DNA from: Chlorophyllum brunneum
Taxonomy: Eukaryota; Basidiomycota; Agaricomycetes; Agaricales; Agaricaceae
Reading direction: 5' to 3'
Assembly: GCA_963576785.1 (NCBI GenBank)
Contig: OY756149.1
Location: 806,001-870,000 of the forward strand
DNA: 64,000 bases
Made by a program: the position numbers and the translations under genes. How positions within the stretch are numbered: the stretch's first letter is position 1; each line of letters begins with the position of its first letter. The notes beneath the pieces are model-generated. The model worked only from the letters and a program-made list of their open reading frames with translations. It had not been told where the DNA came from and made no database searches. Positions 2,570 to 41,030 of the stretch are shown piece after piece.

Positions 2570-4002
2570 ATCGCTCCTTGACTTGTTACCACCACCATCA
2601 CTTTTTCCACTTCCTTTCCCCATCGCACCTTTCATCTCCTGGGCTCTCTCTCATGGGCCTGGGTCTTTTCTGAGCCTTCGCTGGCTGTAGGGGGGCGGTC
2701 CGTGTGGCAACGTTACTTGGTCGATGGGCGGCGCGCCCTTGGTAAAGGCGATTAAAGGTGGGTATATCCCCACCGTTCATCTGACTGACGCCTATACACA
2801 CAGGTCGACGAGGCGGCCCCTTGGTAAAGGGTCTTAAAGGCTGGGATACTGGCCACCTCGCTCGCTTGCACTCGCTGGGTCGTCAGTGGTGGCGGCCCTT
2901 CTACTAATTAGATGGGCTTGCAGTCCCGTATAGGGTTCGCATGTGGGTTTTTACCCCTACTGCAGGTCAAGTCTGGCTAGTATCTCGAGGCTGGGCTATA
3001 CCAGCTGACGACGGACATCCAGGCCCACCCCCAATTGTGCGTGCACGTCGGTGGGGAGCGTGCTGAAAAAAGCCGCCCTGTCGCACCCGAAAGGGACCGA
3101 AAGGATAGGGGACGATAATAGGGGGAACGGAGTGATAACAAGCCGACCAAAAGGACAGGCCACCCCCCACCAGTGTTGCCATGCCTTTGGGAACCCCTCT
3201 GGGGGTAGCGCCTGGTCGTTAGTAGGGATACGCCAAACTCCAGGGCACAGGCGGGTTCGGGTTGACTTGGGGAAACTTGGGTTGATTGGCGCCCGTTCCG
3301 TGGAATGCTTAAGTAATCCGTTCCACGGGTTGCTTAGGTAATCCAATGTGAACACCACCCTGGTAGCGCCCCCTGCGAGACAGAGATCCCCGCCAGTATT
3401 AGCACGCGGATCCGCACCCAAAGACAAGTCACCTCCTCTGGGGGTAGGGCATAGCAAAAGCGGCTGCGGGGGAACGGGAAGCTAGTCCAGGGGTCGCGCC
3501 TTGGAGGTACGCCTTCGTGGCCTCTGCCTGCCCAACTAGTGGACCGTAGCGGGCCGTTTACTGGGAGCATGCTGAAAAAAGCTGCCCGGTTACCGAGAAG
3601 GAGCGGCCCGGCTCAAGAGGTCAAAATCCTCTGTCGGTGGGTCCCCGTGAAGATCGGGGTGTACCCATTTGAGTTGTTACCATGCGAGAGGTCTGGTTTT
3701 GGGGTGGCGGCGTGCGCAGTCAAGCGGTGAGATCCCGTCCGTGCACCATATAGGAAGGATGCCTCAAGCAAACGGCGGGCCGGTCCTCAGGGATACCGCG
3801 CTCTCTCAGTAGTGGGGTGTTCGCCCAAGCTAAAGGCTTTACCTCTTAGGAGGGAGGGGCAAAGTCCCTGCAACATGGCCGGATGCGACACCAATATGGG
3901 AGCCTGGGAACATGCTGGGCATTCTACGGGCACACAACGTCTCAAGACCCCCATTTCTGGGCCTCTAGGAGCTTTATTCCCTCAAGGGGCTCCGTACGCG
4001 GG
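2570..4002 (+). repeat. Module X, copy X2 (complete, alpha type)
   Basis: A full X module of about 1.43 kb. It starts ATCGCTCCTTGACTTG, followed by ACC repeats and a pyrimidine-rich tract, and ends GCTCCGTACGCGGG. Internal landmarks are two copies of a block GCTGAAAAAAGC(C/T)GCC (about 3062 and 3568) and a duplicated block CCTTGGTAAAGG...TTAAAGG(C/T)GGG (about 2740 and 2820). No terminal inverted repeat, LTR or credible ORF is seen. The 3' end is joined without visible homology to the LINE-B sequence at 4003. Confidence 0.85.
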
Positions 4003-19244: not shown

Positions 19245-19802
19245 TTTTTTTTTTTTTTTTTTTTTTTTTTTGATCATGGCCTAAGGCCGATTTATTACGC
19301 GGCGCTCGAACACAGCCCGCGGCCGGAATACAAACAAGTAAACAGGTGGGTATCTACGGAGAACGTGGTAACTACGCCCTACCAAGCAAAAATACCGTTG
19401 CCCAAAGCCAACGGTAGGAGGAATTGCGTCCTACTCCCGAGCCCAGAGGGCGAGGGGAGTGGACGCCAGAGGAGGCGAGTGGGCAGGGAGGTCCCCCAAC
19501 CAGCGACCCAGTCCAAAGACCAGGCCCGGTCAGTAGGTGTTAATTCACTGTAAATGCCCGGTGGTGGAAGCGCACCCAGTTACTAGCCCAGCTAAGCCCC
19601 AACCCCCCTTTACTAAGACCCAGTCCCCCAGCCACGGTCACCCTTGCCAGAGTAATTGACCGCACCATTTGTGTGGCTATCGGCATCTTCACCACACCTA
19701 GTCGCTGTAGGGTCCAGGTCTGTTCATCGGTCATCGGAACTGTCGCCAGGTCTTCGCCAGGGGTCACCGGTGCCGGACAATAACCCACCTACCCTGAGCC
19801 AG

Positions 19803-21888
19803 TTATCCAATTCCCTGGGGAACGGATGGGAAGGCGAACGCCTGGGGGTTCGCTTTCAAGAACTTGACAAGGGCACCCGGTGTAGCAGGGTACCCCCGAG
19901 AGGAATCAAACCGACTGCAGTTGGTAAGAATATGCACACGGGACTCGAAAGGAGCCCCGCATGGACACCAAAATGGTTCGTCCTGGAAGAATCGAGACCT
20001 ATAGGCCCCGATAGGCACATGGTTGAGTATAACCCTACACATGCGGGCGGACAGCGAGTTGGACTCTGCTGCAGCGGAGGGCAGCCACGAACCTCCATGG
20101 AGGTAGGTGGGCTGGAGGGGCTTACTGTTACGCCCTTCGAGAGCCATGAACTGGCTACCCGAGTAAGCAGGATCCTGAAATCGAGTGATCCAGGCATCCT
20201 GGCAGGATTTGACGGCCCTCTGACGAAGGGAGTCAAGGGAGGTCTGCGGACGGGAACCCGCGGCAACCTGAAGTTCGGTGCAGTATTGGTGTACGGTACT
20301 GTGAATGGCCCACTTCTCCGAAGAGAAGGTGTGCCAGATGTGAATGGAGCGTTCAGGGTGGCCCTCGAACCACTCCATAAGAGCATTACACACGGCAAGC
20401 GAATGAGCTTGACCTGAGTGAATGGAAGGGTCCACCGCTCTCTTAGCTGAGCCCAGGGAGTCAGTGAACAAAACAATGGAGTCGCAATCAGGGAGGCTGA
20501 CGGCCTTCCCAATTGCGATCCGGACAGCGTACAGCTCAGCGTCAGGAGCCGTCACTCGACCTGCCGCATGTCTCGTCTGAAAGACACGCCGGCCCGACCG
20601 GTAGATATGGGCAGCAGAAACTGCCTGGAATTCCCCCCGCAGCGGTAGACTAGCATCTGTGGCCACAGTGAGAACCCGAGGGTTGGCATTGGCACGGTCC
20701 AGGGTGCTGTTCAGATGCCTTATATGCACAGCTCTCTCGTTGCGTGAGCGAGGAGAGTCGTGGAAGGAGACCTAGGCCGCAAAGCGGTCCAGGAGACGAT
20801 GACCAGGCTGAGCCACTGCAGAGCAGGGGTCAAACTGTTCGGTAAGGGATGGGAGCACAGAAACAGCTTCCATAAGGGAACCCTTGACCCGACCGACAAG
20901 GCAGTCAGACAAGAGGGAAATGGAGAGAGGGTGCGGGGGCACCCTTGGCGTTCGGACGATCGAGGAGGGATCGAAGAGGGTGGGTATCGGAGAGGGTGGA
21001 GAGGCGGTAGTTCGCTCTTGAGGCCAGCTTCTTCAGATGGAGGTGGACGGGGATGAGGCCAGCGAGGGCCTCGGTGCCGCCAGATGGGGAGGTGCGGAAC
21101 GCACCGGTGATCCACAATGCAGCCTTGCGTTGCATAGTGTTTAGGGATTTGACGAGGCCCTTATACCGGGCCTTATCAAAATACCACAGGCGGAAGCCAT
21201 ACGTCGCGATAGGCACGACACATGACCTGTAAAGGAGCCGCTTCTGCTTGGGGTTCAGACCGCGGGAGGAATTACCCAGCATCCCCATCGCTTTCACGGT
21301 GGAGAGAGCTTTGGTAGAATAATGTCGAACATGTTCCTGAAAATTCAGGGCACAATCGAAGTAAAAGCCCAGATACCTCCAATAGGTCTTAGGGCGTAGA
21401 GGAGTGTCCCCCGTGAATGGACCGAAGCCCAAGTCAAGGGGGGGATTGACGTCTCCAGGCTTCCTAGAGAAGTGGAAGAGCTCGGACTTGTCATGTTCCA
21501 TGACGAGCGCGAATGCCACAAAGAGATTGAAGAGAACGGTGTATGCCCCCTTGAGGGTGTCCAGGTTCTCGTCCCAGGTCTTAGCCTGGGCGACGACAGT
21601 ACCGTCATCGACGTACAACAGCAGAGTACTCCCAGGAGAAGTAACCTGCAGGTCGAAAACCTTCATAAGAGGTGCAATATAGAGGCCAGAGAGGACAGGG
21701 GACATGGCAGAGCCCTGTCCGATGCCCACATCTACGCCCCGGGGATCAGAGGAGAAGCTGTTCCATGTATAAACAGTGGAACGGCCCACCAAATACGAAG
21801 CAAAGAAGGTTCGCACGTTAAGCGGGAACCCCTGCTTGGCAAGAATCGCCATGAGCATCTCATGGTTAAGAGAGGGGAAGAACTGAGC
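19803..21888 (-). pseudogene. LINE-B ORF2 3' block
   Basis: From just after RT motif A to the ORF2 stop (19805-19803). The RT catalytic box YVDD is intact (about 21605). A short deletion near 20930 breaks the frame after RPNAKGAP. A CAG-to-TAG stop sits at 20774-20772 (AAQV becomes AA-stop). RNase H (VATDASLPLRGEFQ, DAELYAVRIAIGK, LFTDSLGSAKRA) and the C-terminal cysteine motif are open. Confidence 0.85.
21874..21888. repeat. Target-site duplication of X3-LINE-A chimera
   Basis: GGGGAAGAACTGAGC at 21874-21888 and at 23995-24009, identical over 15 bp. Removing 21889-24009 rejoins LINE-B ORF2 exactly at motif A. This is the cleanest proof that X and a LINE-A tail were inserted together as one unit. 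Confidence 0.93.
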
Positions 21889-22195
21889 TTTTTTTTTTTT
21901 TTTTTTTTTAAATCAACATGTTTAAGGTGGTGCGCGATCGCAGTCCACCTGTATCTACTGTGACATGTAGGCTACAAAAGTAATGGTATTCGAAGATTGG
22001 CTCTCCCCTGGCCGAGCTAGACCGCCGACAGGCGGTCTGGGTGAACGGTCGCGGAAACGCGCCCGAACGCGCGAGTCCTAGACCAGATATGTAGAGCGAC
22101 CCCTTGCCTCCCCTCCCTAAGGAGAGTATGCGTCAATTCGCAATTAACTTCTACACACGTCAGAGACGTGGGAAGCTAGCAGGGGTCGCGCCGCG

Positions 22196-22560
22196 TTATC
22201 CAACTCCCGTAAGCGGTGTGTTGGACTTAAACGCAAACGCAGAAGGATTGCGTTTAAGAAAACTAACAAGCTGGTCAATAGAGACCGGCAAGCCACGACG
22301 TCTCTTGTACAGAGGACAAGAGCACAAGATATGAGTGCGAGTCTCCAAAGGAGCCCCACACTCGCAGCCAATAGGCTCTAGAGGATGAAACCGGGAGCGG
22401 TACTCGCCGGTTGGAGTGTGCCCGAGGATGGCACGGTTCGCTCTCGTCGCGACGGACTGAGAGGGAAAAGAAGGAAGCCACGAACCCCCGTGGGGGTACG
22501 TTGGCTGTAACACCTTGTCCTTACTATCCTTGAGAGCAAGGAAGTTCGAACCGCGATAAG
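22196..22560 (-). pseudogene. LINE-A ORF2 C-terminal fragment in the X3 chimera
   Basis: About 121 codons: the last part of ORF2 with the FPSQSVATRANRAILGHTPTG block and the cysteine motif CECGAPLETRTHILCSC, TAA at 22198-22196. It has no start of its own. Confidence 0.85.
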
Positions 22561-23994
22561 CCCGTACACGGAGTCCCTTGCAGGCAAACTCCTAGCAGCC
22601 CAGAGACGGGGGTCTTGAGACGATATGTGCCCGTAGAATGCCCAGCATGTTCCCAGGCTCCCATATTGGTGTCGCATCCGGCCATGTTGCGGGGACTTTG
22701 CCCCTCCCTCCTAAGAGGTAAAGCCTTTAGCTTGGGCAGACACCCCGCTACTGAGAGAGCACGGTATCCCTGAGGACCGGCCCGCCGTTCGCTTGAGGCA
22801 TCCTTCCTATACGGTGCACGGACGGGATCTCACCGCATGACTGCGCACATCGCCACCCCAAATCCAGACTACTTACGTGGTATCAACTTAAACGGGTACA
22901 CTCCGTTGTTGGCGGAGACCCATCGACGGAGGATCTAGACCTCTCGAGCCGGGCTGCTCCTTCTCGGTAACTGGGCGGCTTTTTCCAGCGCGCTCCCAGT
23001 AAACAGCCCGCTACGGTCCACTAGTTGGGCAGGCAGAGGCCACGAAGGCGTACCTCCAAGGCGCGACCCCTGGACTAGCTTCCCGTTCCCCCGCAGCCGC
23101 TTTCGCTATGCCCTACCCCCAGAGGAGGCGACTTGTCTTTGGGCGCGGATCCGCGTGCTAATACTGGCGGGGATCTCCGTCTCGCAGGGGGCGCTACCAG
23201 GGTGGTGTTCACATTGGATCACATAAGCAACCCGCGGAACGGGTTACTAAGCAATCCGCGGAACGAGCGCCAATCAACCCGAGTTTCCCCGTGTCAATCC
23301 GCACCCGCCCGGTGTCCTGGAGTTTGGCGTATCCCTACTAACGACCAGGCGCTACCCCCAGAGGGGTTCCCGAAGGCATGGTGACACTGGTGGGGGGTGG
23401 CCTGTCCTTTCGGTCGGCTTGTTTTCACCTCCATACCCCCTATTACCGTCCCTTATCCTTTCGGTCCCTTTCGGGTGCGACGGGGCGGCTTTTTTCAGCA
23501 CGCTCCCCACCGATGTGCAAGCACGATTAGGGGTAGGCCCGGACGTCCGTCGTCAGCCAGGATAACCCAGCCTCGAGATGCTAGCCGGACTTGAGCTGCA
23601 GCAGGGGTTAAAACCGCCATGCAAACCCTATACGGGACTGCAACTCCATTGGATTGATAGAAGGGCCGCCACCACTGGCGACCCAGCGAGCGCAAGCGAG
23701 CGAGGTGGCCAGTATCCCAGCCTTTAAGACCCTTTACCAAGGGGCCGCCTCATCGATCTGTGCGTATAGGCGTCAGTCAGATGAACGGTGGGGATATACC
23801 CACCTTTAATCGCCTTTACCAAGGGCGCGCTGCCCATCGACCAAGTAACGTTGCCACACGGACCGCCCCCCTACAGCCAGCGAAGGCTCAGAAAAGACCC
23901 AGGCCCATGAGAGAGAGCCCAGGAGATGAAAGGTACGATGGGGAAAGGAAGTGGAAAAAGTGATGGTGGTGGTAACAAGTCAAGGAGCGATGTG
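22561..23994 (-). repeat. Module X, copy X3 (complete, beta type)
   Basis: Full-length X with defined ends: 5' CACATCGCTCCTTGAC at 23994 and 3' GACTCCGTGTACGGG at 22561. The beta type differs from alpha in the last ~600 bp: GCAGGCAAACTCC replaces the TTTATTCCC stretch near the 3' end, and GTCTAGATCCTCC replaces GTCAAAATCCTC. Because the enclosing duplication is perfect, these ends are the true ends of the transferred sequence. Confidence 0.88.
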
Positions 23995-24009
23995 GGGGAA
24001 GAACTGAGC

Positions 24010-25257
24010 GATGTCAAAAGCAACCACGCTCGTCTTGAGACCTTTAGCCCACCCAGCGCGAACAAGGTGGGTAAGGAACAACCCGGCGTCCTCAGTGGAA
24101 CGTTGGCGAATGCCTCCAAGTTGGTGGGGGTGAAAGATGTCATGTTTAATGGCATCAAACTGGATGCGGTTGGAAAGCATTTTCTCAACCAGTTTGCCAA
24201 GCGTGTTCAGGAGGACAATTGGCCTGAACGCCTTGGGGGTAGAGTAGGAGGGCTTCCCCGGCTTCGGAATGATAACCGAAAGCGACTCCTTAAAGCTGCG
24301 TGGCCAATGCCCCACCGAAAGGCAGGCATTGGCCAAACGCAGGAACACCGTCAAACAATCCTCATCGATGACGATGTACTTCAGATGGGACCACGTAACG
24401 TGGTCCGGACCTGGAGAGGACGTATTAGAACAAGAGGACAAAGCCTCCCTAAGTTCCAATGCCGAGAAGGGGGCCCACTCCCGGACTGGAAGGTCGGGGA
24501 GGGGGTCGAGGATGGACGTATCACACCGCCGATCAGCAGCGGAGTTGTACGTTGAGTGGAGGGCATCCCAAAGAGAGTCCATAGTGTGACAAGGCCGTCC
24601 ATTAAACTGGATAGCCTTGCAGGGAGGTAACTTGCGTGCCTTGACCCATTCCATAAGGTCCCATGGCCGCTTGTTAGTGGAAGCGATTTCCTCAATCTTA
24701 GAGTCGAAGAATCGGCGCTTGGCAGCTGTGCGAGCCTGCCTAAATTCCCCCCAGTCACCCCAACTACGAGAGTCCTGGTACCTGGAGAAGGAGGTAGCAC
24801 ACGCCTTGTCCCACCAGGGACGCGTGCGGCATGTAATCCGGATCTCCTTCGAGTGGTGTGTCCACGCATCGGAGAAGGCGTCAGCCACGGCCGAAGCCAA
24901 GGCATCCACTTGATCCGGGGATTCTGGAGAGGGATGATCGGAAAGATCAGTCACCTCACCAATAACGTGTTCCAAAAAGGCCTCCTCTTCATCAGAGCCC
25001 CTTGGTAGGACAGATTTGACAACCCCGACGTCAACGGGGGTGATGGGAAGGGCGACGGTCAGTGGAACATGATCCGAAGTGCCCTGCAGAGATATGTCCC
25101 AATAAGGAAAGGTCCTTGATGCATCGGGAGATGAGACAAACACCAGATCGATCACCGATGGGCGGAGATCTGGGTTGTGGGAAACAAACGTCGGCCCCGG
25201 GTTGGTCGGCATAACCAAATCGAGGCCGAGATCACAGCTCATTTCCATGAGCCTATG
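24010..25257 (-). pseudogene. LINE-B ORF2 5' block
   Basis: From the second half of the endonuclease (MEMSCDLGLDLVMPTNPGP, SVIDLVF, GTSDHVPLTV) to RT motif A (FDIAQFF), one open frame. It is truncated at 25257 by the 5' truncation of this LINE-B copy and interrupted at 24009 by the X3 chimera. Confidence 0.88.
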
Positions 25258-25422: not shown

Positions 25423-27402
25423 ATGCCTACTCGCAGTTCGAGGAGGAGGACGAGCGCTCATCACGAGGCCTCCTCAGACGACGATGACATGGCCACTGCC
25501 TTTGAGGCAGCAGCCGGTCCCCCCCCCAGGTCCACCCCAGGCCCTTACTCTCTGGGTATCCCCCCCTACGGCAGCAGTGCCAGGGATACCTATGCCCCCG
25601 CAGTTCCCCTTCAGCAGAGGGGACGCACTCCGTCGCGACACGGGTCCCCAACCCCCTCTCGACCTATCCCAGCTCCTGGCGCAGAAGCCAGGGCTTCGTC
25701 CCTCCCCCCGTCTTCCCCTCCTCCCGCCTCCCCAGAGGCTATGGAACAGGACGACCAGGAGGAGCCTACCGCCGCCCCCCTCTCTATCCTGGGCATCAAC
25801 ATTAGTGCCAGAGAGGATGCCAATGCGATCCAACGGTCGCTCGAGATTGTTGCCGACTTCATGAAGACGGCGCATCTCATTCCCCAGGAGGACGCTCCGT
25901 CCTTCCGCCCCATCGCCTCTCGACTATCTGAGATAGTCCAGACGGTCGCATCCTCCCCCATGTGGCGTGAAACCTACACAGGGGCGAGTGACTCTCTCTC
26001 CCTGAGGGACTCGATCGCTTCGGCGTTTCCTGCTCTCCCAGTGGTGACGTATAGGCCCCCGGCTACCCCTCCCAGGGTACCAGGACCTTCCACCCTCGGC
26101 CCCCCCCAGCGCAGAGCCCCTGTGCAGGAGGAGGACAATCTTATGGACCCGGAGAAGACTCCAGTCAAACGCCCGCGCACAGACCCTAAGGGGAAGGCGC
26201 CAGTCCGACCTGTTAAGGCCCCTACTAAGCCTCAGGTCCCCTATGAGAGGCCCTCTGGTCCTCCTCCCTCCACGATCGCTTCGAAGCCCAAGCCAGGACA
26301 GAAGGCTTATTCGGCTGCAGCGAAACAACCGGCCTCGTCCAAGTCTGGGGTGGAGCCGCTTTCTGCATTGAAAGCAGCCTTCCCCCACCTCTCCGCAGAG
26401 CAGCTCCTCAGCCTTCATTCGCAGGCTGAGGCTGCGAAGCAATCTCCCTCGTCAAATGCTCGCCCTAAGAAGCCAGCGTTCACGATTCCCGGACCGTCGC
26501 GAAAGCAGGTCCTAGTTTCCTATGAAGACAAGTCGAACGCTTCGGCTGGTCTCCATACTCTTACCCAGCAGGCCTGTAAGGCGCTGAAGGCTGGGAGAAG
26601 CTCACTGATCGTGGAAGGTGCCACGCTCGCGTATGATGGCTATTCCATGGCCACCAACAAGCTCGCCACGACCAAGGACATTGAGATCCTTAGGGCGTTG
26701 GTCGAACGTCTGTCCCCTCCAGGAGCCCCCTTCTGGATCGGACTCCCATCTTCGGTGTCGTACCTCCGTGTGGTTGACGTCCCGTATCTCAAGAACTCCG
26801 CCGCTGGAGTTCCGTGTACCCCAGCAGACGTCGAGGAGGTTCTTACCTCGTCGGTGCATGCTCCCCTGATCAGCCTGAAGGGTCCCCCTAGGCTAGTGCG
26901 CAACTCCAGGACGTCTGACTCATGTACGGCGTTTTTTGATATCTGGGACTCCATGAGGGGTACTCGAGCTCTCGGTCTTCTGAACAAGAAGATCATGTTT
27001 GGGAACAAGCAGTGCGTGATACTCTCTGCTAACCCTCGTCGTAACGAGTCGCTGTGTACCCGCTGTTACAAGTGGGGCCACGCCTCCTCCTGGTGCAAGG
27101 CCGATGGCCCGGCATGTCCCGACTGCGGTGGTGCGCACTCTCGTGCTAACCACCGCACTTTTGCTCTGTGTTGTAAGGGGCAACCGAAGGCTACGCCTCC
27201 GGTTCCTGCTACCCCTACTGGTCAACCGTGCCCCCATCCTCCTCACTGCCGTAACTGCAAGAAGGAGCATCCCGCTGATTCCAGGAAATGCGCTTTCTGG
27301 AACCACAAACACGACCGGGCTTGGCTGACAGCCCGCTATCGAGAGGTGTGTGACAGACGTCGTCGCTCTCCCATCCCCCCTTATAACCCCCCTTATGTCT
27401 AG
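25423..27402 (+). CDS. LINE-B ORF1, gag-like zinc-knuckle protein
   Basis: 659 residues, ATG at 25423, TAG at 27400-27402. By family knowledge ORF1 binds element RNA and forms the ribonucleoprotein. Residues 1-110 are rich in Ser, Pro and acidic residues (HEASSDDDDMATAFEAAAG). A helical part lies around 125-190, and a basic Pro-rich linker (VKRPRTDPKGKAPVRPVKAP) near 245-265. A conserved domain near 420-540 (FWIGLPSSVSYLRVVDVPYL) may be RRM-like; that assignment is a guess. Residues 545-558 form a canonical CX2CX4HX4C knuckle (CTRCYKWGHASSWC), followed by CPDCGGAHSRANH and CRNCKKEHPADSRKC. The frame is fully open. ORF2 begins 8 bases before its stop, in another frame. Confidence 0.92.
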   Translation: MPTRSSRRRTSAHHEASSDDDDMATAFEAAAGPPPRSTPGPYSLGIPPYGSSARDTYAPAVPLQQRGRTPSRHGSPTPSRPIPAPGAEARASSLPPSSPPPASPEAMEQDDQEEPTAAPLSILGINISAREDANAIQRSLEIVADFMKTAHLIPQEDAPSFRPIASRLSEIVQTVASSPMWRETYTGASDSLSLRDSIASAFPALPVVTYRPPATPPRVPGPSTLGPPQRRAPVQEEDNLMDPEKTPVKRPRTDPKGKAPVRPVKAPTKPQVPYERPSGPPPSTIASKPKPGQKAYSAAAKQPASSKSGVEPLSALKAAFPHLSAEQLLSLHSQAEAAKQSPSSNARPKKPAFTIPGPSRKQVLVSYEDKSNASAGLHTLTQQACKALKAGRSSLIVEGATLAYDGYSMATNKLATTKDIEILRALVERLSPPGAPFWIGLPSSVSYLRVVDVPYLKNSAAGVPCTPADVEEVLTSSVHAPLISLKGPPRLVRNSRTSDSCTAFFDIWDSMRGTRALGLLNKKIMFGNKQCVILSANPRRNESLCTRCYKWGHASSWCKADGPACPDCGGAHSRANHRTFALCCKGQPKATPPVPATPTGQPCPHPPHCRNCKKEHPADSRKCAFWNHKHDRAWLTARYREVCDRRRRSPIPPYNPPYV

Positions 27403-30400
27403 GAGCAACCTGGACCGTCTGGAGGGCGTTAGGGTTTTTTCATTTAACGTCGCTAAATCCTATGTATATGTTGATGCCTTACTCGAGAAATTGAAAGATG
27501 ATTTCGATATTCTCTTTTTCCAAGAGCCTCCTTGGAGGTTCATCCGCTCCGCTCCCTCGACCACTTATGTGGAAGGGGACGACGTTACTGGCGCACCTAA
27601 GCACCCTGACTGGCTTATGGTGGTGCGTCCCCCTGTCCAGGGGTCCCTGCCCCGAGTGATGGCGTATGTACACACTCGGCTGCAACGTCTAAGGCCATCA
27701 ATGAGGAGGGACCTCGTGGATCACCCTGATATCTTGGCGCTGACGCTCTTCACTGATGCGAAGGCCCTTAACTTCCTGAACGTCTACTCAGATGATCAGC
27801 ATACCGCCATCAACTTCCTTCATGGGAAGGTCGATGTCCTCCCCCCATTTGAATTTATGAGTGGGGACTTCAACTGTCATTCTTCGGAGTGGGACCCTGA
27901 GGTTCTGCATCATCGAACGACAGCTCATAGGCTTATGGAAATGAGCTGCGATCTCGGTCTCGATTTGGTTATGCCAACCAACCCGGGTCCGACGTTTGTT
28001 TCCCACAACCCAGATCTCCATCCGTCGGTGATCGATCTGGTGTTTGTCTCGTCTCCCGATGCATCGAGGACTTTTCCTTATCGGGACACATCTCTGCAGG
28101 GTACTTCGGATCACGTTCCGCTGACCGTCACCCTTCCCATCACCCCTGTTGACATCGGGGTTGTCAAATCTGTCCTACCGAAGGGCTCCGATGAAGAGGA
28201 GGCCTTTTTGGGACACGTCATTGATGAGGTGACTGAGCTTCTTGATCAGCCCTCTCCAGAATCCCCGGATCAAGTGGATGCCTTGGCTTTGGCCGTGGCT
28301 GAAGCCTTCTCCGACGCGTGGACACACCACTCGAAGGAGATCCGGATTACGCGCCGCACTCGTCCCTGGTGGGACGAGGCGTGTGCTACTTCCTTCTCCA
28401 GGTACCAGGACTCTCGAAGTCGGGGTGACTGGGGGGACTTTAGGCGAGCTCGTACAGCTGCCAAGCGCCGGTTCTTCGACTCTAAGATTGAGGAAATCGC
28501 TTCCACTAACAAGCGGCCATGGGACCTTATGGAATGGGTCAAGGCACGCAAGTTACCTCCCTGTGAGGCCATCCAGTTTAACGGACGGCCTTGTCACACT
28601 ATGGACTCTCTCTGGGATGCCCTCCACTCAACGTACAACTCTGCTGCTGATCGGCGGTGTGATACGTCTGTCCTCGACCCCCTCCCCGACCTTCCGGTCC
28701 GGGAGTGGGCCCCCTTCTCGGCGTTGGAACTCAAGGAGGCTTTGTCCTCTTGTTCTAATACGTCCTCTCCAGGTCCGGACCACGTTACGTGGTCCCATCT
28801 GAAGTACATCGTCATCGATGAGGATTGTTTGACGGTGTTCCTGCGTTTGGCCAATGCCTGCCTTTCGGTGGGGCATTGGCCACGCAGCTTTAAGGAGTCG
28901 CTTTCGGTTATCATTCCGAAGCCGGGGAAGCCCTCCTACTCTACCCCCAAGGCGTTCAGGCCAATTGTCCTCCTGAACACGCTTGGCAAACTGGTTGAGA
29001 AAATGCTTTCCAACCGCATCCAGTTTGATGCCATTAAACATGACATCTTTCACCCCCACCAACTTGGAGGCATTCGCCAACGTTCCACTGAGGACGCCGG
29101 GTTGTTCCTTACCCACCTGGTTCGTGCTGGGTGGGTCAAGGGTCTCAAGACGAGCGTGGTTGCCTTCGACATCGCTCAGTTCTTTCCCTCTCTTAACCAT
29201 GAGATGCTCATGGCTATTCTTTCCAAGCAGGGATTCCCACTTAACGTGCGAACCTTCTTTGCTTCGTATTTGGTGGGCCGTTCTACTGTCTACACATGGA
29301 ACGGCTTCTCCTCTGACCCCCGAGGTGCAGATGTGGGCGTCGGGCAGGGCTCTGCCATGTCCCCCGTCCTCTCTGGCCTCTATATCGCACCTCTCATGAA
29401 GGTTTTCGACTTGCGGATCACCTCCCCTGGGTGTACTCTGCTGTCGTATGTCGACGACGGGACCGTCGTTGCCCAGGCTAAGACCTGGGACGAAAACTTG
29501 GACACCCTCAAAGGGGCGTACATCGTTCTCTTTAATCTTTTTGTAGCGTTCGCGCTTATCATGGAGCATGATAAGTCCAAGCTCTTCCACTTCTCTAGGA
29601 AGCCTGGAGACGTCAATCCCCCCCTTGATCTTGGCTTCGGCCCATTCACAGGGGACACTCCACTTCGCCCTAAGACCTATTGGAGGTACCTGGGCTTTTA
29701 CTTCGATCGTGCCCTGAATTTTCAGGAACATGTTCGGCACTATTCTACCAAGGCCCTCTCCACCGTGAAAGCGATGGGGATGCTGGGTAACTCCTCCCGC
29801 GGTCTGACCCCCAAGCAGAAGCGGCTCCTCTTCAGGTCATGTGTCGTACCTATCGCGACATATGGCTTCCGTCTTTGGTATTTTGATAAGGCTCGGTGCA
29901 AGGGCCTCATCAAATCCCTTAACACTATGCAACGCAAGGCTGCGTTGTGGATCACCGGTGCGTTCCGCACCTCCCCATCCGGCGGCATCGAGGCCCTCTC
30001 TGGCCTCATCCCCGTCCACCTCCATCTGAAGAAGCTGGCTTCAAGAGCGAACTACCGTCTCTCCACCCTCTCCGATACCCACCCTCTTCGATCCCTTCTC
30101 GATCGTCCGAACGCCAAGGGTGCCCCCCCACACCCTCTCTCCATCTCCCTCCTGTCTGACCGGCTTGGTAGGCAGGTTAAAGGATCTCTTATGGAAGCTG
30201 TGTCTATGCTCCCATCCCTCACTGAACAGTTTGACCCCTGCTCTGCAGCAGCTCGGCCTGGTCACCGTCTCCTGGACCGCTTTGCGGCCCAGGTCCTTTT
30301 CCACGACTCTCCTCGTTCTCGTGACGAGAGGGCTGTGCATATAAGGCATCTGAATGGCACCCTGGACCGTGCCAATGCCAACCCTCGGGCTCTCACTGTG

Positions 30401-31261
30401 GCCACAGACGCTAGTCTGCCGCTGCGGGGGGAGTTCCAGGCAGTCTCTGCTGCCCATATCTACCGGTCGGGCCAGCGTGTCTTTCAGACGAGACATGCGG
30501 CAGGTCGAGTGACAGCTCCTGATGCTGAGCTGTACGCTATCCAGATCGCAATTGGGAAGGCCGTCAGCCTCCCCGACTGCGACTCCATTGTCGTGTTCAC
30601 TGACTCACTTGGTTCGGCCAGGAGAGCGGTGGACCCTTCCGTTCACTCAGGCCAGGCTCATTCGCTTGCCGTGTGTACCGCTCTTATGGAGTGGTTTGAG
30701 GGTCACCCCGAACGCTCCCTTCACATCTGGCACACCTATTCTTCGGAGAAGTGGGCCATTCATGGTGTTGTACACCAGTACTGCACCGAACTTCAGGTCG
30801 CTGCGGGTTCCCGTCCGCAGACCTCCCTCGACTCCCTTCATCAGAAGGCCGTCAGATCCTGCCAGGATGCCTGGGTCACTCGATTCCAGGATCCTACTTA
30901 CTCGGGTAGCCAGTTTATGGCTCTCGAAGGGCGTAACGGTAAGCCCCTCCAGCCCACTTACCTCCATGGAGGTTCGTGGCTGCCTTCTGCCGCAGCAGAG
31001 TCCAACTCGCTGTCTGCTCGCATGTGTAGGGTTATACTCAACCATGCGCCTATCGGGGCCTATAGGTCTCGATTCTTCCAGGACGAACCATTTTGGTGTC
31101 CATGCGGGGCTCCTTTCGAGTCCCGTGTGCACATTCTTACCAACTGCAGTCGGTTTGATTCCTCTCGGGGGTACCCTGCTACGCCGGGCGCCCTTGTCAA
31201 GTTCTTGAAAGCGAACCCCCAGGCGTTCGCCTTCCCATCCGTTCCCCAGGGAATTGGATAA
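27395..31261 (+). CDS. LINE-B ORF2, endonuclease-reverse transcriptase-RNase H
   Basis: 1288 residues from the ATG at 27395, which I prefer over upstream codons because it reproduces the 8-base ATGNNTAG overlap seen in LINE-A. Domains: APE endonuclease about 10-240 (FFQEPPW with QEP at 42-44, NVYSDD, GDFN 157-160, SVIDLVF, SDH 238-240); RT about 470-780 (motif A FDIAQFFPSL with D592, motif B GQGSAMSPVLSG, YVDD 685-688, LGFYFD); RNase H about 1000-1140 (D1005 in ATDAS, E1045 in DAELYAI, D1070 in FTDSLGS); C-terminal CX1CX8HX4C at 1235-1251. The protein nicks the target, primes reverse transcription from the nick and degrades the RNA strand. No residue expected for activity is missing among those I can see. 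Confidence 0.93.
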   Translation: MSRSNLDRLEGVRVFSFNVAKSYVYVDALLEKLKDDFDILFFQEPPWRFIRSAPSTTYVEGDDVTGAPKHPDWLMVVRPPVQGSLPRVMAYVHTRLQRLRPSMRRDLVDHPDILALTLFTDAKALNFLNVYSDDQHTAINFLHGKVDVLPPFEFMSGDFNCHSSEWDPEVLHHRTTAHRLMEMSCDLGLDLVMPTNPGPTFVSHNPDLHPSVIDLVFVSSPDASRTFPYRDTSLQGTSDHVPLTVTLPITPVDIGVVKSVLPKGSDEEEAFLGHVIDEVTELLDQPSPESPDQVDALALAVAEAFSDAWTHHSKEIRITRRTRPWWDEACATSFSRYQDSRSRGDWGDFRRARTAAKRRFFDSKIEEIASTNKRPWDLMEWVKARKLPPCEAIQFNGRPCHTMDSLWDALHSTYNSAADRRCDTSVLDPLPDLPVREWAPFSALELKEALSSCSNTSSPGPDHVTWSHLKYIVIDEDCLTVFLRLANACLSVGHWPRSFKESLSVIIPKPGKPSYSTPKAFRPIVLLNTLGKLVEKMLSNRIQFDAIKHDIFHPHQLGGIRQRSTEDAGLFLTHLVRAGWVKGLKTSVVAFDIAQFFPSLNHEMLMAILSKQGFPLNVRTFFASYLVGRSTVYTWNGFSSDPRGADVGVGQGSAMSPVLSGLYIAPLMKVFDLRITSPGCTLLSYVDDGTVVAQAKTWDENLDTLKGAYIVLFNLFVAFALIMEHDKSKLFHFSRKPGDVNPPLDLGFGPFTGDTPLRPKTYWRYLGFYFDRALNFQEHVRHYSTKALSTVKAMGMLGNSSRGLTPKQKRLLFRSCVVPIATYGFRLWYFDKARCKGLIKSLNTMQRKAALWITGAFRTSPSGGIEALSGLIPVHLHLKKLASRANYRLSTLSDTHPLRSLLDRPNAKGAPPHPLSISLLSDRLGRQVKGSLMEAVSMLPSLTEQFDPCSAAARPGHRLLDRFAAQVLFHDSPRSRDERAVHIRHLNGTLDRANANPRALTVATDASLPLRGEFQAVSAAHIYRSGQRVFQTRHAAGRVTAPDAELYAIQIAIGKAVSLPDCDSIVVFTDSLGSARRAVDPSVHSGQAHSLAVCTALMEWFEGHPERSLHIWHTYSSEKWAIHGVVHQYCTELQVAAGSRPQTSLDSLHQKAVRSCQDAWVTRFQDPTYSGSQFMALEGRNGKPLQPTYLHGGSWLPSAAAESNSLSARMCRVILNHAPIGAYRSRFFQDEPFWCPCGAPFESRVHILTNCSRFDSSRGYPATPGALVKFLKANPQAFAFPSVPQGIG

Positions 31262-31765
31262 CTGGCTTAGGGTAGGTGGGTTATTGTCCGGCACCGGTGA
31301 CCCCTGGCGAAGACCTGGCGACAGTTCCGATGACCGATGAACGGACCTGGACCCCACAGCGACTAGGTGTGGTGAAGATGCCGATAGCCACACAAATGGT
31401 GCGGTCAAATACTCTGGCAAGGGTGACCGTGGCTGGGGGACTGGGTCTTAGTAAAAGGGGTTGGGGCTCAGCTGGGCTAGTAACTGGGTGCGTCTCCACC
31501 GCCGGGCATTTACAGTGAATCAACACCTACTGACCGGGCCTGGTCTTTGGACTGGGTCGCTGGTTGGGGGACCTTCCTGCCCACTCGCCTCCTCTAGCGT
31601 CCACCCCCTTGCCCTTCGGGCTCGGGAGTAGGTCGCGGTTCCTTCTACCGTTGGTCTTGGGCAACGGTACTTCTGCTTGGTGGGGCGTAGCTACCACTCT
31701 CTCCGTAGATACCCGCTAGTTTACTCTTTTGTATCCCGGCCGCGGGCTGTGTTCGAGCGCCGCGT

Positions 31766-31784
31766 AATAAATTGGCCCTAGGCC
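31766..31784 (+). terminator. LINE-B polyadenylation signal and 3' palindrome
   Basis: AATAAA at 31766-31771 followed by the palindrome GGCCCTAGGCC (31774-31784), 7 bases before the poly(A). The same AATAAA plus GGCC-NNN-GGCC arrangement occurs before the poly(A) of the other LINE-B copies (for example 4632-4651, and reversed near 19280 and 49420). It probably serves 3' processing and may be the structure the RT recognises. Confidence 0.65.
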
Positions 31785-31829
31785 ATGATTCAAAAAAAAA
31801 AAAAAAAAAAAAAAGGGAGGCAATCGCTC

Positions 31830-34571: not shown

Positions 34572-35465
34572 ACGATGTCAGCCTAATGGTCAAGTGGTTT
34601 GGGTGTAGGCTTAATTCCTACCAGGCTGCTTGGCTAGAAGGTCCTGGGTTCAAAACCTGTGGGGAGAAATTTATTCTCAACCGTGGGAAGTACCAGTGCG
34701 CAAGGTGTGGTTGCTTAGCAATATTTCTGGGTGACACCGGATTAGGTTGTGTGGTCCTGTTTGGCATTATTTGGTGCTGTCACAGGCTAGCGTGGGAGTT
34801 GTCACACCCAGCCACATAGCAAGTCACATAGTGACGTCACACTGTCACGGTGTGACCCAGCTATGTCCATTGCCCAAGTCCAATATTGGCCAAAGGCGGT
34901 GGTGCCCTAATGCTGGGGCCTAACTTGGGAGGATTACCTAAGCCATTGCTGGAGATAGGGCATTATAAGAAGGGGAATGTTGTGATAACAGTCCGACTTG
35001 GGGTATGCTGAAAAAAGCCACCGAGATAGGATACCCCTCCTGGTCCACTTTGGCATAGTTCCGGTAGTTAGTAGACATAACCCAATCTCCAGATTGAGGA
35101 TGCTGACTAAGTTGGCTTAAAATAACCTCAGGACCAATCTGGTAGTGGTGTCTGCAAGGTGTAGATCTCAGACAGTTAAGCACGGGGATCCAGGCCATAA
35201 GGTATACCAAACTGGCTGCTGAGGAACGGAAAGCAACTCCAGGGTAGTACCTGGGTGAAGTTGTGGGCCATAGCAGGTGATGTACCGGGGCATGCTGAAA
35301 AAAGCCGCCAGTTATCAGAGAATGCTCACCTGGCTCGAGAGGACTAAATCCTATATTGGTTGGCCTGGTACAGGAAAAATAGCCAGGTTCCAGCTCAAGT
35401 TGATTCCACGTCACCATTAGCTAAGGCTGGTAGTAAGAGACCCCTCAAGGGGCTCCGTAGACGGG
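34572..35465 (+). repeat. Module X', diverged shorter relative of X
   Basis: About 0.9 kb. The body after ~34970 is clearly related to X: two GCTGAAAAAAGCC(A/G)CC blocks (about 35008 and 35294), a GGTAGTTAGTAG(A/G) block, CTGGCTCGAGAGG, and the 3' end CTCCGTAGACGGG. The first ~400 bp are unlike X and start with a tRNA-like promoter. A CpG-poor palindromic stretch (CACATAGTGACGTCACACTG) lies near 34830. No ORF of interest. Confidence 0.78.
34578..34665 (+). promoter_or_regulatory. tRNA-derived Pol III promoter (A and B boxes)
   Basis: A box TGGTCAAGTGG at 34587-34597 (consensus TGGCNNAGTGG with one change) and a perfect B box GGTTCAAAACC at 34647-34657, 49 bp apart, a spacing typical of tRNAs with a long variable arm. 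The acceptor and T stems pair poorly, so this is a tRNA relic, not a functional tRNA gene. It sits at the exact 5' end of the X' element, as in tRNA-derived SINEs. Confidence 0.72.
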
Positions 35466-35518
35466 CCCCTGCTAGCTTCCCATGTCTTTGATGTGTGTAG
35501 GAGTTAATTGCGAATTGA

Positions 35519-35532
35519 CACATACTCTCCCT
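35519..35532. repeat. Target-site duplication of the X5-LINE-A chimera
   Basis: CACATACTCTCCCT at 35519-35532 and CGCATACTCTCCTT at 41335-41348, two transitions in 14 bp. The flanks join into one LINE-A 3' UTR. Confidence 0.8.
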
Positions 35533-36956
35533 CGACTTGTTACCACCACCACCACTTTTTCCACTTCCTTTCCCCATCGCACCTTTCATCTCCTGGGCTC
35601 TCTCTCATGGGCCTGGGTCTTTTCTGAGCCTTCGCTGGCTGTAGGGGGGCGGTCTGTGTGGCAACGTTACTTGGTCGATGGGCGGCGCGCCCTTGGTAAA
35701 GGCGATTAAAGGTGGGTATATCCCCACCGTTCATCTGACTGACGCCTATACGCACAGGTCGACGAGGCGGCCCCTTGGTAAAGGGTCTTAAAGGCTGGGA
35801 TACTGGCCACCTCGCTCGCTTGCACTCGCTGGGTCGTCAGTGGTGGCAGCCCTTCTACTAATTAGATGGGCTTGCAGTCCCATATAGGGTTCGCATGTGG
35901 GTTTTTACCCCTACTGCAGGTCAAGTCTGGCTAGTATCTCGAGGCTGGGCTATACTAGCTGACGACGGACATCCAGGCCCACCCCCAATCGTGTGTGCAC
36001 GTCGGTGGGGAGCGTACTGAAAAAAGCCGCCCTGTCGCACCCGAAAGGGACCGAAAGGATAAGGGACGATAATAGGGGGAACGGAGTGATAACAAGCCGA
36101 CCAAAAGGACAGGCCACCCCCCACCAGTGTCACCATGCCTTTGGGAACCCCTCTGGGGGTAGCGCCTGGTCGTTAGTAGGGATACGCCAAACTCCAGGGC
36201 ACGGGCGGGTTCGGGTTGACTTGGGGAAACTCGGGTTGATTGGCACCCATTCCGTGGAATGCTTAAGTAATCCGTTCCATGGGTTGCTTAGGTAATCCAA
36301 TGTGAACACCACCCTGGTAGCGCCCCTTGCGAGACAGAGATCCCCGCCAGTATTAGCATGCAGATCCACACCCAAAGACAAGTCACCTCCTCCGGGGGTA
36401 GGGCATAGCGAAAGCGGCTGCGGGGGAACGGGAAGCTAGTCCAGGGGTCGCGCCTTGGAGGTACGCCTTTGTGGCCTCTGCCTGCCCAACTAGTGGACCG
36501 TAGCGGGCCGTTTACTGGGAGCGTGCTGAAAAAAGCCGCCTGGTTACCGAGAAGGAGCGGCCCGGCTCGAGAGGTCAAAATCCTCTGTCGGTGGGTCCCC
36601 GTGAAGATCGGGGTGTACCCATTTGAGTTGTTACCACGCGAGAGGTCTGGTTTTGGGGTGGCGGCGTGCGCAGTCAAGCGGTGAGATCCTGTCCGTGCAC
36701 CATATAGGAAGGATGCCTCAAGCGAACGGCGGGCCGGTCCTCAGGGATACCGCGCTCTCTCAGTAGCGGGGTGTTTGCCCAAGCTAAAGGCTTTACCTCT
36801 TAGGAGGGAGGGGCAAAGTCCCCGCATCATGGCCGGATGTGACACCAATATGGGAGCCTGGGAACATGCTGGGCATTCTACGGGCACACGACGTCTCAAG
36901 ACCCCCATTTCTGGGCCTCTAGGAGCTTTATTCCCTCAAGGGGCTCCGTACGCGGG
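35533..36956 (+). repeat. Module X, copy X5 (alpha type)
   Basis: Nearly full-length X (1424 bp), missing only the first ~10 bases (starts CGACTTGTTACC). The first GCTGAAAAAAGC block has a change (ACTGAAAAAAGC at about 36016); the second at 36525-36540 is intact. Ends GCTCCGTACGCGGG. No protein-coding capacity recognised. Confidence 0.88.
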
Positions 36957-37165
36957 CCACACCGGCGGATGAGCCCTGTCCTCATATGCCGCGTTGTCTC
37001 AACTGTCGGGGTCCCCACCATACGACCTCGAAGAAGTGTAAATTCTTTGACGCTCGGTTTGAACCCGAGAAGATCAAGAAGTTTTATCGCGAGGTGAGTA
37101 ACAACCGTCTTCGACGGCGATCTCCCCTCACCAACCCTCGTACTCTACAGCTTGCCAATGAATAG
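36957..37165 (+). pseudogene. LINE-A ORF1 3' end
   Basis: The last ~70 codons of ORF1: the distal cysteine motif (CLNCRGPHHTTSKKC), then FFDARFEPEKIKKFYREVSNN and the end LQLANE, TAG at 37163-37165. It lacks the CCHC knuckle and everything before it because the X-LINE joint lies at 36956/36957. It overlaps the ORF2 ATG by the 8 bases ATGAATAG. Confidence 0.88.
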
Positions 37166-40100
37166 GCGACCTCTAGAACTACGTAGCATCCGATTGTACC
37201 AACAGAATCTTAACAAAAATTATGATTTATTGGACACATTACTTGAGGACCTCAAAGATCACTTTGATGTTCTCTTTATTCAGGAACCTCCCTGGCGGTT
37301 CATTAGATCCGCTCCCTCCACAACTTCTGTTGAGGGGGACGACGTTGTTGGCGCCCCCAAGCACCCCGAGTGGCTGTGCATGGTTCGGGCCCCGGAGCCT
37401 GGCTCTGACCCACGGGTTATGACATTTGTCCATAACCGGTTGTCTTCTCTGAGACCGTCCTATCGGACGGATCTCATCAATCACCGTGACATCATAGTTC
37501 TCTCCCTTTTTCTGGGGGGTGAGACCCTGAATCTCATGAACGTTTACTCTGATTCGGAGCACACGGCAATTCGGTTCCTAGCGGTCCGGGCTGCTACATT
37601 GCCCAGAAATGTCTATATGGGCGGCGACTTCAATTGCCATTCTGAGTTGTGGGACCCTAATTATGGCTCCCACTCAGGTACCTCGCAGTCTCTGATCTCT
37701 ATCGGGACAGACATCGGTCTAGACCTCGCCCTTCCGGTCGAGCCTGGGCCTACTCACATTCCGCATAATGAGGATCTTTGACCATCAGTCATTGATCTTG
37801 CATTTGTTCCATCAGACCTGTCTATTTCCCATAGACCCAGGTTAGATTACTCCCTTAGGGGTCCGTCAGACCACGTTCCACTGGTTCTGGCGCTTCCAGT
37901 CACTCCCACGATAGTGGAGACTCACAGGAAAACCCTGCCGCATGATGGTGGCGAAGAGGTAGCGCTCTTCCTCACTGATGTTATTCGGGATCTCCGAGAA
38001 GTAGCTAGGCTTCCGGAACCTACCACTGCTGATGAGGTTGAGGCCGCGGTTCACGCCGTGGCGGAGGCCTTTTCCACCGCGTGGGAAGCCCATGCAGTGG
38101 ACATCATGATCACTCGCTGCTCTAAGCCCTGGTGGAACCAGGAATGCCGCGAAACTTTCGGGAGATATCGTGAAACTCGTTCTCACGATGACTACTCTGA
38201 CTTTAGACGTGCTAAGAAGCGCACAAAGCGCAACTTCTTTGATGCTCGCATCGAGGAGATTGCTTCTACAAACAAGCGACCGTGGGACCTTATGGAATGG
38301 GTCCAAAAGCGGAAGCTTCCACCCTGCGAGGCTATCCAGTTCAATGGAGAGCCATGTCACGTGCTCCCAGATCTCTGGGATGCACTCCACAATACCTACA
38401 ACTCGGCTTCTGGCCGAGCTGTAGATGTTTCTGTTCTTGATCCGCTGCCAAGCCTTATGGCGCGGGAGTGGGTCCAATTCTCAGCCTTAGAGCTGATGGA
38501 CGCCCTTAGCACATGCTCGGGTGTGTCCGCCCCGGGGCCGGACCATGTAACATGGACCCACCTCAAGGAGATCACCAAGGACCCCGATGTCCTTCGGCTA
38601 TTCATCGGGATAGCCAATGCCTGCATGAGTGTGGGTCATTGGCCATCCCATTTCAAGGAAAGCTTGTCGGTTATCATACTGAAGCCGGGCAAGCCATCCT
38701 ACTCAACGCCCAAGGCATTCAGGCCCATTGTGCTCCTGAACACTTTCGGTAAACTCATCGAGAAGATGGTCTCGAATCGCCTCCAGTTTGACTCTGTCAA
38801 GCATGGAGTTTTTCATCCAAATCAGCTCGGTGGTATCCGTCAGAGGTCCACTGATGATGCTGGGATGCTCCTAACCCACATCGTTCGCGCGGGGTGGGCC
38901 AAGGGCCTCAAGACTAGCGTTGTCGCGTTCGACATCGCTCAGTTCTTTCCTTCGCTCAACCACTCTATGTTGTTGGCGATTTTGCGGAAGCAAGGATTCG
39001 ACCCCTGTGTGGGCAGATTCTTTGCCTCTTATTTGGTTGGCCGCTCTACGCAATATGCGTGGGGGGACCACAAGTCTGATCTCAGGCAGGCGGACGTTGG
39101 GGTCAGTCAGGGCTCTTCGCTCTCTCCTGTCCTCTCCGGCCTCTATCTTGCCCCCTTCATGAAGCTTTATGATAGGGAGGCAATCGCCCTTGGGAGCACC
39201 TTGCTCTCATATGTCGACAATGGCCTTGTCATCGCCCAAGCCAAGACTTGGGAACCTAATTTGGTGTGCCTCAGGCAGGCATACCAGATTATTTATCGCC
39301 TGACTACTTCGTTTGGGCTTGCCGTCGAGCACGACAAGTCCGAAGTTTTTCATTTCTCCCGTAAACGGGGAGACGACAACCCACCGCTGGATCTGGGGTA
39401 TGCTCCCCATACCGGCGATACTCCGTTATGCCCTAAGACCCATTGGAGGTACTTGGGCTTTTTCTTCGATCGCGCTCTTACGTTCAAAGAGCACGTTCGG
39501 CATTACGCTACTAAGTCTTTGTCCATGGTCAAGGCCATGGGCATGCTTGGTAACTCTTCACGAGGCCTTCTTCCTTCCCAGAAGAGGACTCTGTACCGCT
39601 CATGCGTAGTGCCCATCGCTACGTATGGGTTTTGACTCTGGTTTTATGAAGGTGCCCGTAACAAGGCCCTTCTGAAGCAACTTAACGCTATGCAGCGCAG
39701 AGCTGCATTGTGGATCACTGGTGCATTCCGCACCAGCCCTTCCGGAGGAGCTGAAGCCTTGGCTGGCCTCATCCCCATCCACCTTCACCTCAGGAAGCTA
39801 GCTGCCCGTGCCGTCCACAGGATGGCTACGCTTTCTGATAATCACCCTGTTCGTTCCGTTATGGGGCGTCAGTATATAGGGGGTTGTGTCCCACACCCCA
39901 GATTGATCGCTCTCATGACCCCCACCCAGGCGGGTAAGGTCAAGGGGCCGGTCATGGAGGCAAACTCTCGCTTGCCAGACCTAATGGAAACATTTGAGCC
40001 ATTTGTGCTCGAGGCGTCGCCAGGTTCTCATCTCATGGACCGATTCGCAGCCCAGGTGACTTTTAAAACGTATGATGCCTCGCTCGGTGGAAACCCTGCG

Positions 40101-41030
40101 GGTCGCCAGGTGGATTTGCTCAATGATACCCTTCGTGGGTATCGTGAGGACAGACAGGTTGTCTACGCAGCGACGGACGCAAGTCTGCCACTGGTTGGGG
40201 ACTTCCAGGCAGTTTCTGCTGCCCACGTTTATAGGGGGACACGCTTGCTTTATGCAACGCGTCACCCAGCTGGCAAGGTTACAGCCCCAGATGCTGAACT
40301 CTTCGCCATTCGTATGGCCTTGGGTACTGCTGCCGCAGTCTCGGAGGCTGTACACATTGCGGTCTTCACAGACTCAATTGGTTCTGCCAAGCGAGCTCTT
40401 GACCCGTCCGTACACTCTGGCCAGGGACACTCCCTGGCTGTGTGTCGACTTTTGTTGGAGTGGTTCAGGAATCGTCCTGACCACTCCCTCACTTTGTGGT
40501 CCATTCCGTCAGCGGCGAAATGGTCCATTCATCAGGGTGTGCATGCATTTGCCACCGATTTACAGGTTGCCGCTGGACGCCGTCCAGCGACATCAATTGA
40601 TTCGCTGCGTAAAGTCAACGTAGCAGCTATTCAGAAGGCCTGGAAAGTCACTTTCCGGGACTCCTCTTATCGCGGTTCGAACTTCCTTGTTCTCAAGGAC
40701 AGTAAGGACAAAGTGCTACAGCCAATGTACCTCCATGGGGGTTCTTGGCTTCCCTCTTTTCCCTCTCAGTCTATTGCGACGAGAGCGAACCGTGCCATCC
40801 TCGGGCACACTCCAACCGGCGAGTATCGCTCCCGGTTTCATCCTCTAGAGCCTATTGGCTGCGGGTGTGGGGCTCCTCTGGAGACCCGCACTCATATCTT
40901 GTGCTCTTGTCCTTTGTACAAGAGACGCCGTGGCCTGCCAGTCTCTATCGACCAGCTGGTTAATTTTCTTAAGCGCAATCCTTTTGTGTTCGCGTTTAAG
41001 GCCAACACACCGCTTGCGGGAGTTGGATAA
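37158..41030 (+). pseudogene. LINE-A ORF2, full length with two stops
   Basis: 1291 codons in one frame from ATG 37158 to TAA 41028-41030, the same length as the intact LINE-A ORF2. It is broken by TGA at 37779-37781 (after NEDL) and TGA at 39633-39635 (in YGFRLWF); both fit CGA-to-TGA changes. The endonuclease motifs (FIQEPPWRF, GGDFNCHSELWD, GPSDHVPL) and the RNase H acidic residues are intact. The RT box reads YVDN (about 39210-39221), so the second catalytic aspartate is lost. It cannot make an active protein. Confidence 0.9.

Follow-up and report, generated by a model that had tools for sequence, protein, structure and literature searches.

The non-coding module X of Chlorophyllum brunneum and its distant relative X2 are joined at variable points to 5′-truncated long interspersed nuclear elements (LINEs), and the motif at the junction varies with the module and not with the LINE. 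A single short site inside the modules is complementary to each of the motifs. The type case is a unit in a 64-kilobase (kb) stretch of DNA, hereafter the window (contig C11:806001-870000 of the genome), in which X and a LINE-A tail lie within a copy of LINE-B (Table 1). The change of motif with the module on one and the same LINE, together with the complementary internal site, argues for RNA-guided joining rather than a plain template jump.

Anatomy of the module-LINE units

The original prediction for this locus, X followed by a 5′-truncated LINE-A tail and poly(A) between two 15-base-pair (bp) target-site duplications, agrees with the exact 15-mers (GGGGAAGAACTGAGC) and with the alignment. 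The whole inserted unit covers 21889-23994 on the minus strand, with X first, then LINE-A (reference length 6,298 nucleotides, nt), then poly(A). Elsewhere the 15-mer is matched at up to one mismatch a single time, at 29174-29188 (minus strand) within a LINE-B copy; the shuffled-sequence expectation for such matches is 0.02. When the flanks 19249-21888 and 24010-25257 are joined, they form a single 3,888-nt LINE-B alignment of 93% identity, and an open stretch of 743 codons runs across the joint (425 codons in the same frame with the unit present). This agrees with the proposal that removal of the unit restores open reading frame 2 (ORF2) of LINE-B. The target duplications flank entire units and the joining of the flanks restores LINE-B, which upholds the view that X and the LINE tail arrived in one insertion event. 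X was also correctly called non-coding: it holds no long reading frame, and its longest stop-free stretch is 104 codons, antisense.

The genome searched comprises 38.9 Mb in 14 contigs, and the counts of X and X2 copies given here hold for the matches listed. In the first 30 loci all 30 X copies run into a LINE piece on the same strand, and in the larger set each of the 64 X 3′ ends that could be read borders on a LINE of the same strand; no solo X is present among these matches. X copies without a readable 3′ end are not part of the 64 (they include L018, L023, L031-L034, L038, L065, L072, and L073). X copies do not lie mostly outside LINE tails, and target duplications are not placed directly at both ends of X but around whole X-LINE units. 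X always takes the 5′ side of the LINE part. The LINE breakpoints are variable (1128-5928 in LINE-A, 657-6140 in LINE-B), and none of the X junctions mapped falls at LINE position 1. The end position of X is constant: its last three bases are GGG in 53 of the 64 copies, AGG in 7, GGA in 3, and AGA in 1, which are substitutions only, so that the terminal G is present in 60.

Target duplications were found at 11 of the 16 distinct X units with both ends in hand. Nine carry exact repeats of 8-16 nt, and two (L011, L012) match only after their 5′ flanks are exchanged. The exchanged 5′ target repeats of these two X-LINE-B units indicate that the segment 895-2568 of the window was inverted between two X copies of opposite orientation. 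Mismatched flank pairs served as control (n = 272): in 268 of them the repeat was 0-9 nt long and in the other four 15-16 nt, the latter, on our reading, because of the L011/L012 exchange with L011 entered twice.

Some junctions are shared between copies. L003 and L008 have X parts of 95.7% identity and LINE tails of 87.2%; for L005 and L007 the values are 96.3% and 89.5%. Near-identical X parts on tails diverged by 11-13% imply that the X source is homogeneous, that the LINE donors are diverse, and that sites are chosen repeatedly. L011 and L012 (X 99.4%, tail 98.8% identical) look like two insertions of one chimera. Remobilization of one chimera fits this pair but neither of the other two, and was rejected as the general source of shared junctions. 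L008 itself (C1:1946098-1950452) is an X-LINE-A unit that lies within another X copy, with a 15-nt repeat ACCCCCAGAGGAGGC. The listed X-LINE copies are located in one LINE-rich region on each of contigs C1-C13, which suggests that these regions are centromeric.

X had been described alone and with two LINE partners. LINE-A and LINE-B were confirmed as partners, and the set is now extended by a third family (LINE-C), by subfamilies of X, and by X2. ORF2 of LINE-A and LINE-B each contains an endonuclease (PF14529) and a reverse transcriptase domain (PF00078), both above cut-off. The best ORF2 matches are mostly from Agaricales at ~50-60% identity, and LINE-A ORF2 is nearest to proteins of this order from, for example, Cyclocybe and Candolleomyces. 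Copies of LINE-C are scattered through the genome (of 418 candidate places, 40 were scored). The last ~65 nt of LINE-A (reference 6234-6298) are 76-83% alike in LINE-C and 73-74% in LINE-B. Because of these similar 3′ ends, one LINE enzyme could serve all three families.

X2 has a head resembling leucine transfer RNA (tRNA-Leu), a 3′ core related to X, and the end ..ACGGG. It is followed by variable LINE pieces and not by a simple-repeat or LINE-like 3′ tail of its own. Among 19 X2 3′ ends, 15 clearly run into a LINE and L031 does so weakly; L051 continues into an X module, and L079 enters a LINE-B alignment only from base 12. In L083 (C1:4575400-4576700), outside the LINE-rich regions, the downstream partner is not LINE-A, -B, or -C; ~120 nt further downstream a dispersed repeat starts. 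Exact 15-bp target duplications enclose two of the three X2-LINE-C units, one of which lies in an element of the long terminal repeat type. L051 (C4:2542800-2544400) is tripartite, with X2, X from about position 246, and LINE-A, and its X2-X joint lies at ATCGA^ (^ marks the joint). X contains three runs of four T, and none is present in any of the five X2 copies checked, as expected if RNA polymerase III reads through X2. The motif GCTGAAAAAAGCCGCC occurs twice per module (X 488-516 and 1000-1027; also twice in X2) at a spacing of 510 or 287 bases; it has 253 genome matches at up to one mismatch, compared to 2 for the reversed pattern.

Junction motifs and the candidate guide

Two subfamilies of X can be differentiated, type I ending in ..GTGTACGGG and type II ending in ..GTACGCGGG. 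The LINE bases before the junction are mostly CCU^ for type I, CUY^ for type II (Y, pyrimidine), and CGA^ for X2. In the first 34 sites, CT was present at -2/-1 or -3/-2 in 28 (background 0.17). For the following counts the donor base is the majority of the other LINE copies at hand, and window copies were left out as duplicates. At the 25 distinct sites of type I, with an older variant counted in, C stands at -2 in 18 and T at -1 in 19. Type II has C at -3 in 17 and T at -2 in all of 19 distinct sites. In X2, 17 junctions with at least two donors show C at -3 in 16, G at -2 in 14, and A at -1 in 13, and CGA^ is kept on LINE-A, LINE-B, and LINE-C.

One module site, X 563-568, is complementary to each of these motifs in a single register (GGAGGU in type I, CGGAGU in type II, UGUCGU in X2). 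The homologous site of X2 reads UGUUGU or UGUGGU in some copies; UGUCGU predicts ACGA^C. At three LINE-A sites, junctions of both X types are present in copies whose guide could be read, and the joint differs by type: 5627 for L001, L054, and L047 (type I; the L047 guide was taken from the adjoining L055) compared to 5625 for L028 and L056 (type II); 5806 for L005 and L007 (type I) compared to 5807 for L037 (type II); and 4875 for L050 (type I) compared to 4874 for L060 (type II). In the mosaic copy L037, the junction matches the guide and not the 3′ end of the module. A pyrimidine at +2 is found in 19/22 copies of type I, where the guide has G, and in 11/24 of type II, where it has C, which suggests that the pairing spans the joint. 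The +1 base is mostly a pyrimidine in every type and does not discriminate, as all three guides have G there.

The guide site ranked first in each scan of the modules: of 12,789 tests in X (copies longer than 1,350 nt, 27 distinct sites only; L008+, L009, L012, and L025 left out), of 4,527 in a further scan (family-wise p 0.006), and of 912 when type I, type II, and X2 were combined. In the last scan it scored 72.5, the next unrelated site 45.5, and the maximum under label permutation was 38.5 in 2,000 runs. The margin between the sites is the telling number here, because the second-best site also exceeds the permutation maximum. Pairing of junctions with their own guide totaled 249 (permutation maximum 232 in 100,000), and the own guide was best or tied at 48 of 54 sites. 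The older guide variant was counted with type I in these totals and left out of the 912-test scan. Held-out X copies gave 88 paired positions over 19 guide/site combinations, compared to an expectation of 51 at random LINE sites (maximum 72 in 20,000) and of 73 from pooled junctions (p 0.0007). The held-out set includes L054, L066, L067, L069, and L070, with which the simple rule scores lower for type I. For L051, whose X2 guide is not covered, the X2 junction was left out of the own-guide, 912-test, and held-out analyses. A guide in the 3′ hairpin of X (AGGAGY) was also considered; it fits type I, fails for type II, and was dropped.

Proposed guided RNA joining and its alternatives

A moderately favored explanation is that a guide directs the joining of module and LINE RNA in a putative reaction resembling reverse splicing, which would then be followed by LINE retrotransposition. 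X and X2 would be RNAs similar to short interspersed nuclear elements (SINEs) that have no LINE-like 3′ tail themselves and still multiply. The short internal guide would base-pair with the LINE RNA across the future junction, and there the 3′-terminal G of the module would become linked to the LINE RNA that lies downstream, by analogy with the initial step of reverse splicing. The module itself or a partner protein would perform this chemistry. The LINE machinery would subsequently insert the chimeric RNA of module, LINE 3′ part, and poly(A) by target-primed reverse transcription, and the poly(A) and the target duplication would be the traces of this process. Cleavage after the terminal G could also remake the precise end of the module out of chimeric transcripts; this would account for the lack of stand-alone X among the matches listed and for a constant 3′ end in spite of it. 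The position of the joint inside the duplex and the constant terminal G suggest that the RNAs are joined before reverse transcription. In a bolder version, somewhat less likely than not, a previously undescribed, guided ribozyme-like domain would free the 3′ end of X and X2, find LINE RNA by its guide, and ligate itself by the reverse-splicing-like reaction. As RNA parasites, the modules would then acquire a new LINE 3′ end each time they are joined. The WEIRD module of the MINE elements in Magnaporthe might be another member, with its GCC motif as the footprint of its guide.

Several observations weigh against guided joining. Five of the 16 units (L003, L004, L018, L022, and L030) have no target duplication beyond chance. 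The prediction of ACGA^C for X2 was made from the module sequence but had not been recorded when the X2 junctions were determined. Copies with the older guide variant UGAGGU show C at -2 in no more than 3/8, so that the variant fits the simple motif rule poorly, yet it pairs using G-U wobbles. Held-out copies with any GAGGU guide have C at -2 in 6/10 (4/5 for exact GGAGGU). Single pairings are short and often contain G-U, and many copies are not significant alone. An Rfam search of the modules gave no match to a ribozyme family. Folding energies are ordinary, and single folds are not unusually stable. The structural support is modest: a fold derived from X keeps 81/123 pairs in X2 with 18 compensated (slid controls 43-56 and 8-12), while the reverse test keeps 97/173 (controls 57-71) with no excess of compensated pairs (11 compared to 8-14).

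The guide could also act without any joining of RNA, by annealing the module to the LINE RNA so that the LINE reverse transcriptase jumps to the module 3′ end. Such guided template switching accounts for the module-specific motif, the insertion as one unit, and the sense orientation, and it is by template switching that MINE has been explained in print (PMC2104539). The +2 counts place the joint inside the proposed duplex, whereas an enzyme halted by a duplex would be expected to stop at its edge and less exactly. This route is regarded as plausible, though less likely. A further possibility, that the LINE reverse transcriptase switches template at its pause motifs with no guide involved, is quite improbable. 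It would suit the GCC*A/U motif and recurrent sites of MINE junctions (PMC2104539), and recurrent sites are present here as well; the motif, however, differs between modules on the same LINE-A template, X2 retains CGA^ on three LINE families, and a pause motif of the LINE enzyme is not expected to vary with the module. Four plain 5′-truncated LINEs with a repeat of at least 10 nt were available as control (LINE-A 5380; LINE-B 5204, 6619, and 6651), too few for it to decide.

Two further explanations were discarded. If X were a LINE 5′ untranslated region and the units were LINEs with internal deletions, the constant 5′ placement of X on the same strand would be expected. X has no match to LINE-A or LINE-B apart from the junctions, it joins both families, and no junction was mapped to LINE position 1, which leaves this reading very little probability. 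Trans-splicing by the spliceosome, from X to cryptic acceptor sites on LINE RNA, would explain one constant donor end with many acceptors, but the acceptors should then end in AG. G at -1 is present in 0/25 type I, 0/19 type II, and 2/10 X2 sites, and splicing is given practically no chance.

Known systems and other features of the window

Group I and II introns reverse splice by means of a guide that pairs with both sides of the target bond, where the 3′ end of the RNA is joined. Group I introns have a U-G wobble at -1, and group II introns end in AY. The proposed guide of the modules would likewise pair on both sides, with the module 3′ end joined there. Neither intron class gave an Rfam match. 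In the proposed register the -1 pairs are U-A (type I), Y-G (type II), and A-U (X2), unlike in group I introns, and X and X2 end in G, unlike group II introns.

The resemblance of the units to MINE (Magnaporthe WEIRD-MGL) had been predicted, and their anatomy matches: in the study of MINE (PMC2104539), a full-length non-coding 5′ module precedes a 5′-truncated LINE, poly(A), and target duplications, and no solo module, recurrent junctions, a short motif before the joint, and one tripartite case are described. The comparison had left out a mechanism and the dependence of the motif on the module. The explanation given there is that the LINE reverse transcriptase switches template at a motif of the LINE; base pairing that would account for the motif was not found. 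Here three motifs (CCU^, CUY^, and CGA^) track three guides, two module families join three LINE partners, and the junction motifs differ from GCC*A/U.

In chimeras of U6 and other RNAs with mammalian LINE-1, target duplications likewise enclose a full-length small RNA in sense and, 3′ of it, a truncated LINE-1; ligation of RNA or a template switch has been suggested as their origin (PMC13174262, accessible part). Unlike the modules here, these RNAs are cellular and do not multiply, and that part of the source mentions no guide. X2 resembles tRNA-derived SINEs in its head and its lack of TTTT; unlike them, it lacks a LINE-like tail of its own and continues, at variable joints, into the 3′ part of a LINE. 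SIDEs and the R2 and R2/R1 hybrid elements are similarly non-autonomous and LINE-derived, and a ribozyme lies at the R2 5′ end; as far as the accessible part of their description goes (PMC3414825), they are internal deletions of full-length ribosomal DNA elements, whereas the units here combine independent modules with dispersed LINEs. No earlier description of an RNA guide in a LINE chimera was found in the open-licence literature, and a search of a plasmid collection gave no relevant match.

With the anatomy already known from MINE, the new elements are the module-dependent motif, the candidate guide, the second module family, and the three LINE partners. The cause of the junction points in LINE chimeras has so far been left open; the motifs of three modules can be explained by one internal site, and the choice of junction becomes testable by altering six guide bases. 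If the joining is catalyzed by RNA, the known ribozymes would gain a natural guided trans-joining RNA, and non-coding RNAs would be seen to exploit LINEs by a new route. If guided template switching applies, an RNA would be able to steer where a LINE reverse transcriptase changes its template.

Table 1. Features of the 64-kb window (positions counted from its first base)
Feature	Position	Strand	Remark
Target-site duplication, left copy	21874..21888	+	exact 15-mer GGGGAAGAACTGAGC
Target-site duplication, right copy	23995..24009	+	exact 15-mer GGGGAAGAACTGAGC
LINE-A tail, reference 5627-6298, poly(A) end	21889..22560	-	3′ part of unit
Module X type I, 1,434 nt, non-coding	22561..23994	-	5′ part of unit
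X 3′ end, conserved, with short complementary stretches, ends ..GTGTACGGG	22561..22600	-	X 3′-end alignment
Proposed X guide GGAGGU	23427..23432	-	pairs with LINE-A ..CCU^YY
Host LINE-B, 3′ half	19249..21888	-	
Host LINE-B, 5′ half	23995..25257	-	
Module X, type II guide, from another X-LINE-B unit extending left beyond the window	1..894	-	
Inverted segment between two X copies	895..2568	.	L011/L012 flanks
Module X, type II guide	2569..4002	+	joined to LINE-B tail 4003-4676
Long LINE-B copy	25423..31814	+	ORF1 25423-27402, ORF2 27350-31261
Module X2, 890 nt	34576..35465	+	tRNA-Leu-like head 34578-34668 (ARAGORN tRNA-Leu)
Proposed X2 guide	34978..34983	+	UGUUGU here, UGUCGU in other copies
LINE-A tail of X2 unit	35466..35530	+	broken by next unit, resumes 41334-41573
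X (35530-36956, type II guide) and 4.4-kb LINE-A (36957-41334)	35530..41334	+	10-nt exact flank repeat
X 5′ fragment	43184..43335	+	adjoins full-length LINE-A
X (49926-51359, type II guide) joined to LINE-A	49926..52681	+	joint at 51360
X fragment	52894..54018	+	X positions 281-1415
Long LINE-A copy	54021..59446	-	ORF2 54328-58206, ORF1 58193-59446
X fragment	60463..61602	+	X positions 2-1143

The window additionally contains a plain LINE-A insertion at 5928-6844 with a 16-nt target duplication. Its first LINE-A base is 5380, next to the X junction of L049 at 5379, and it could originate from LINE RNA that was cut but not joined.

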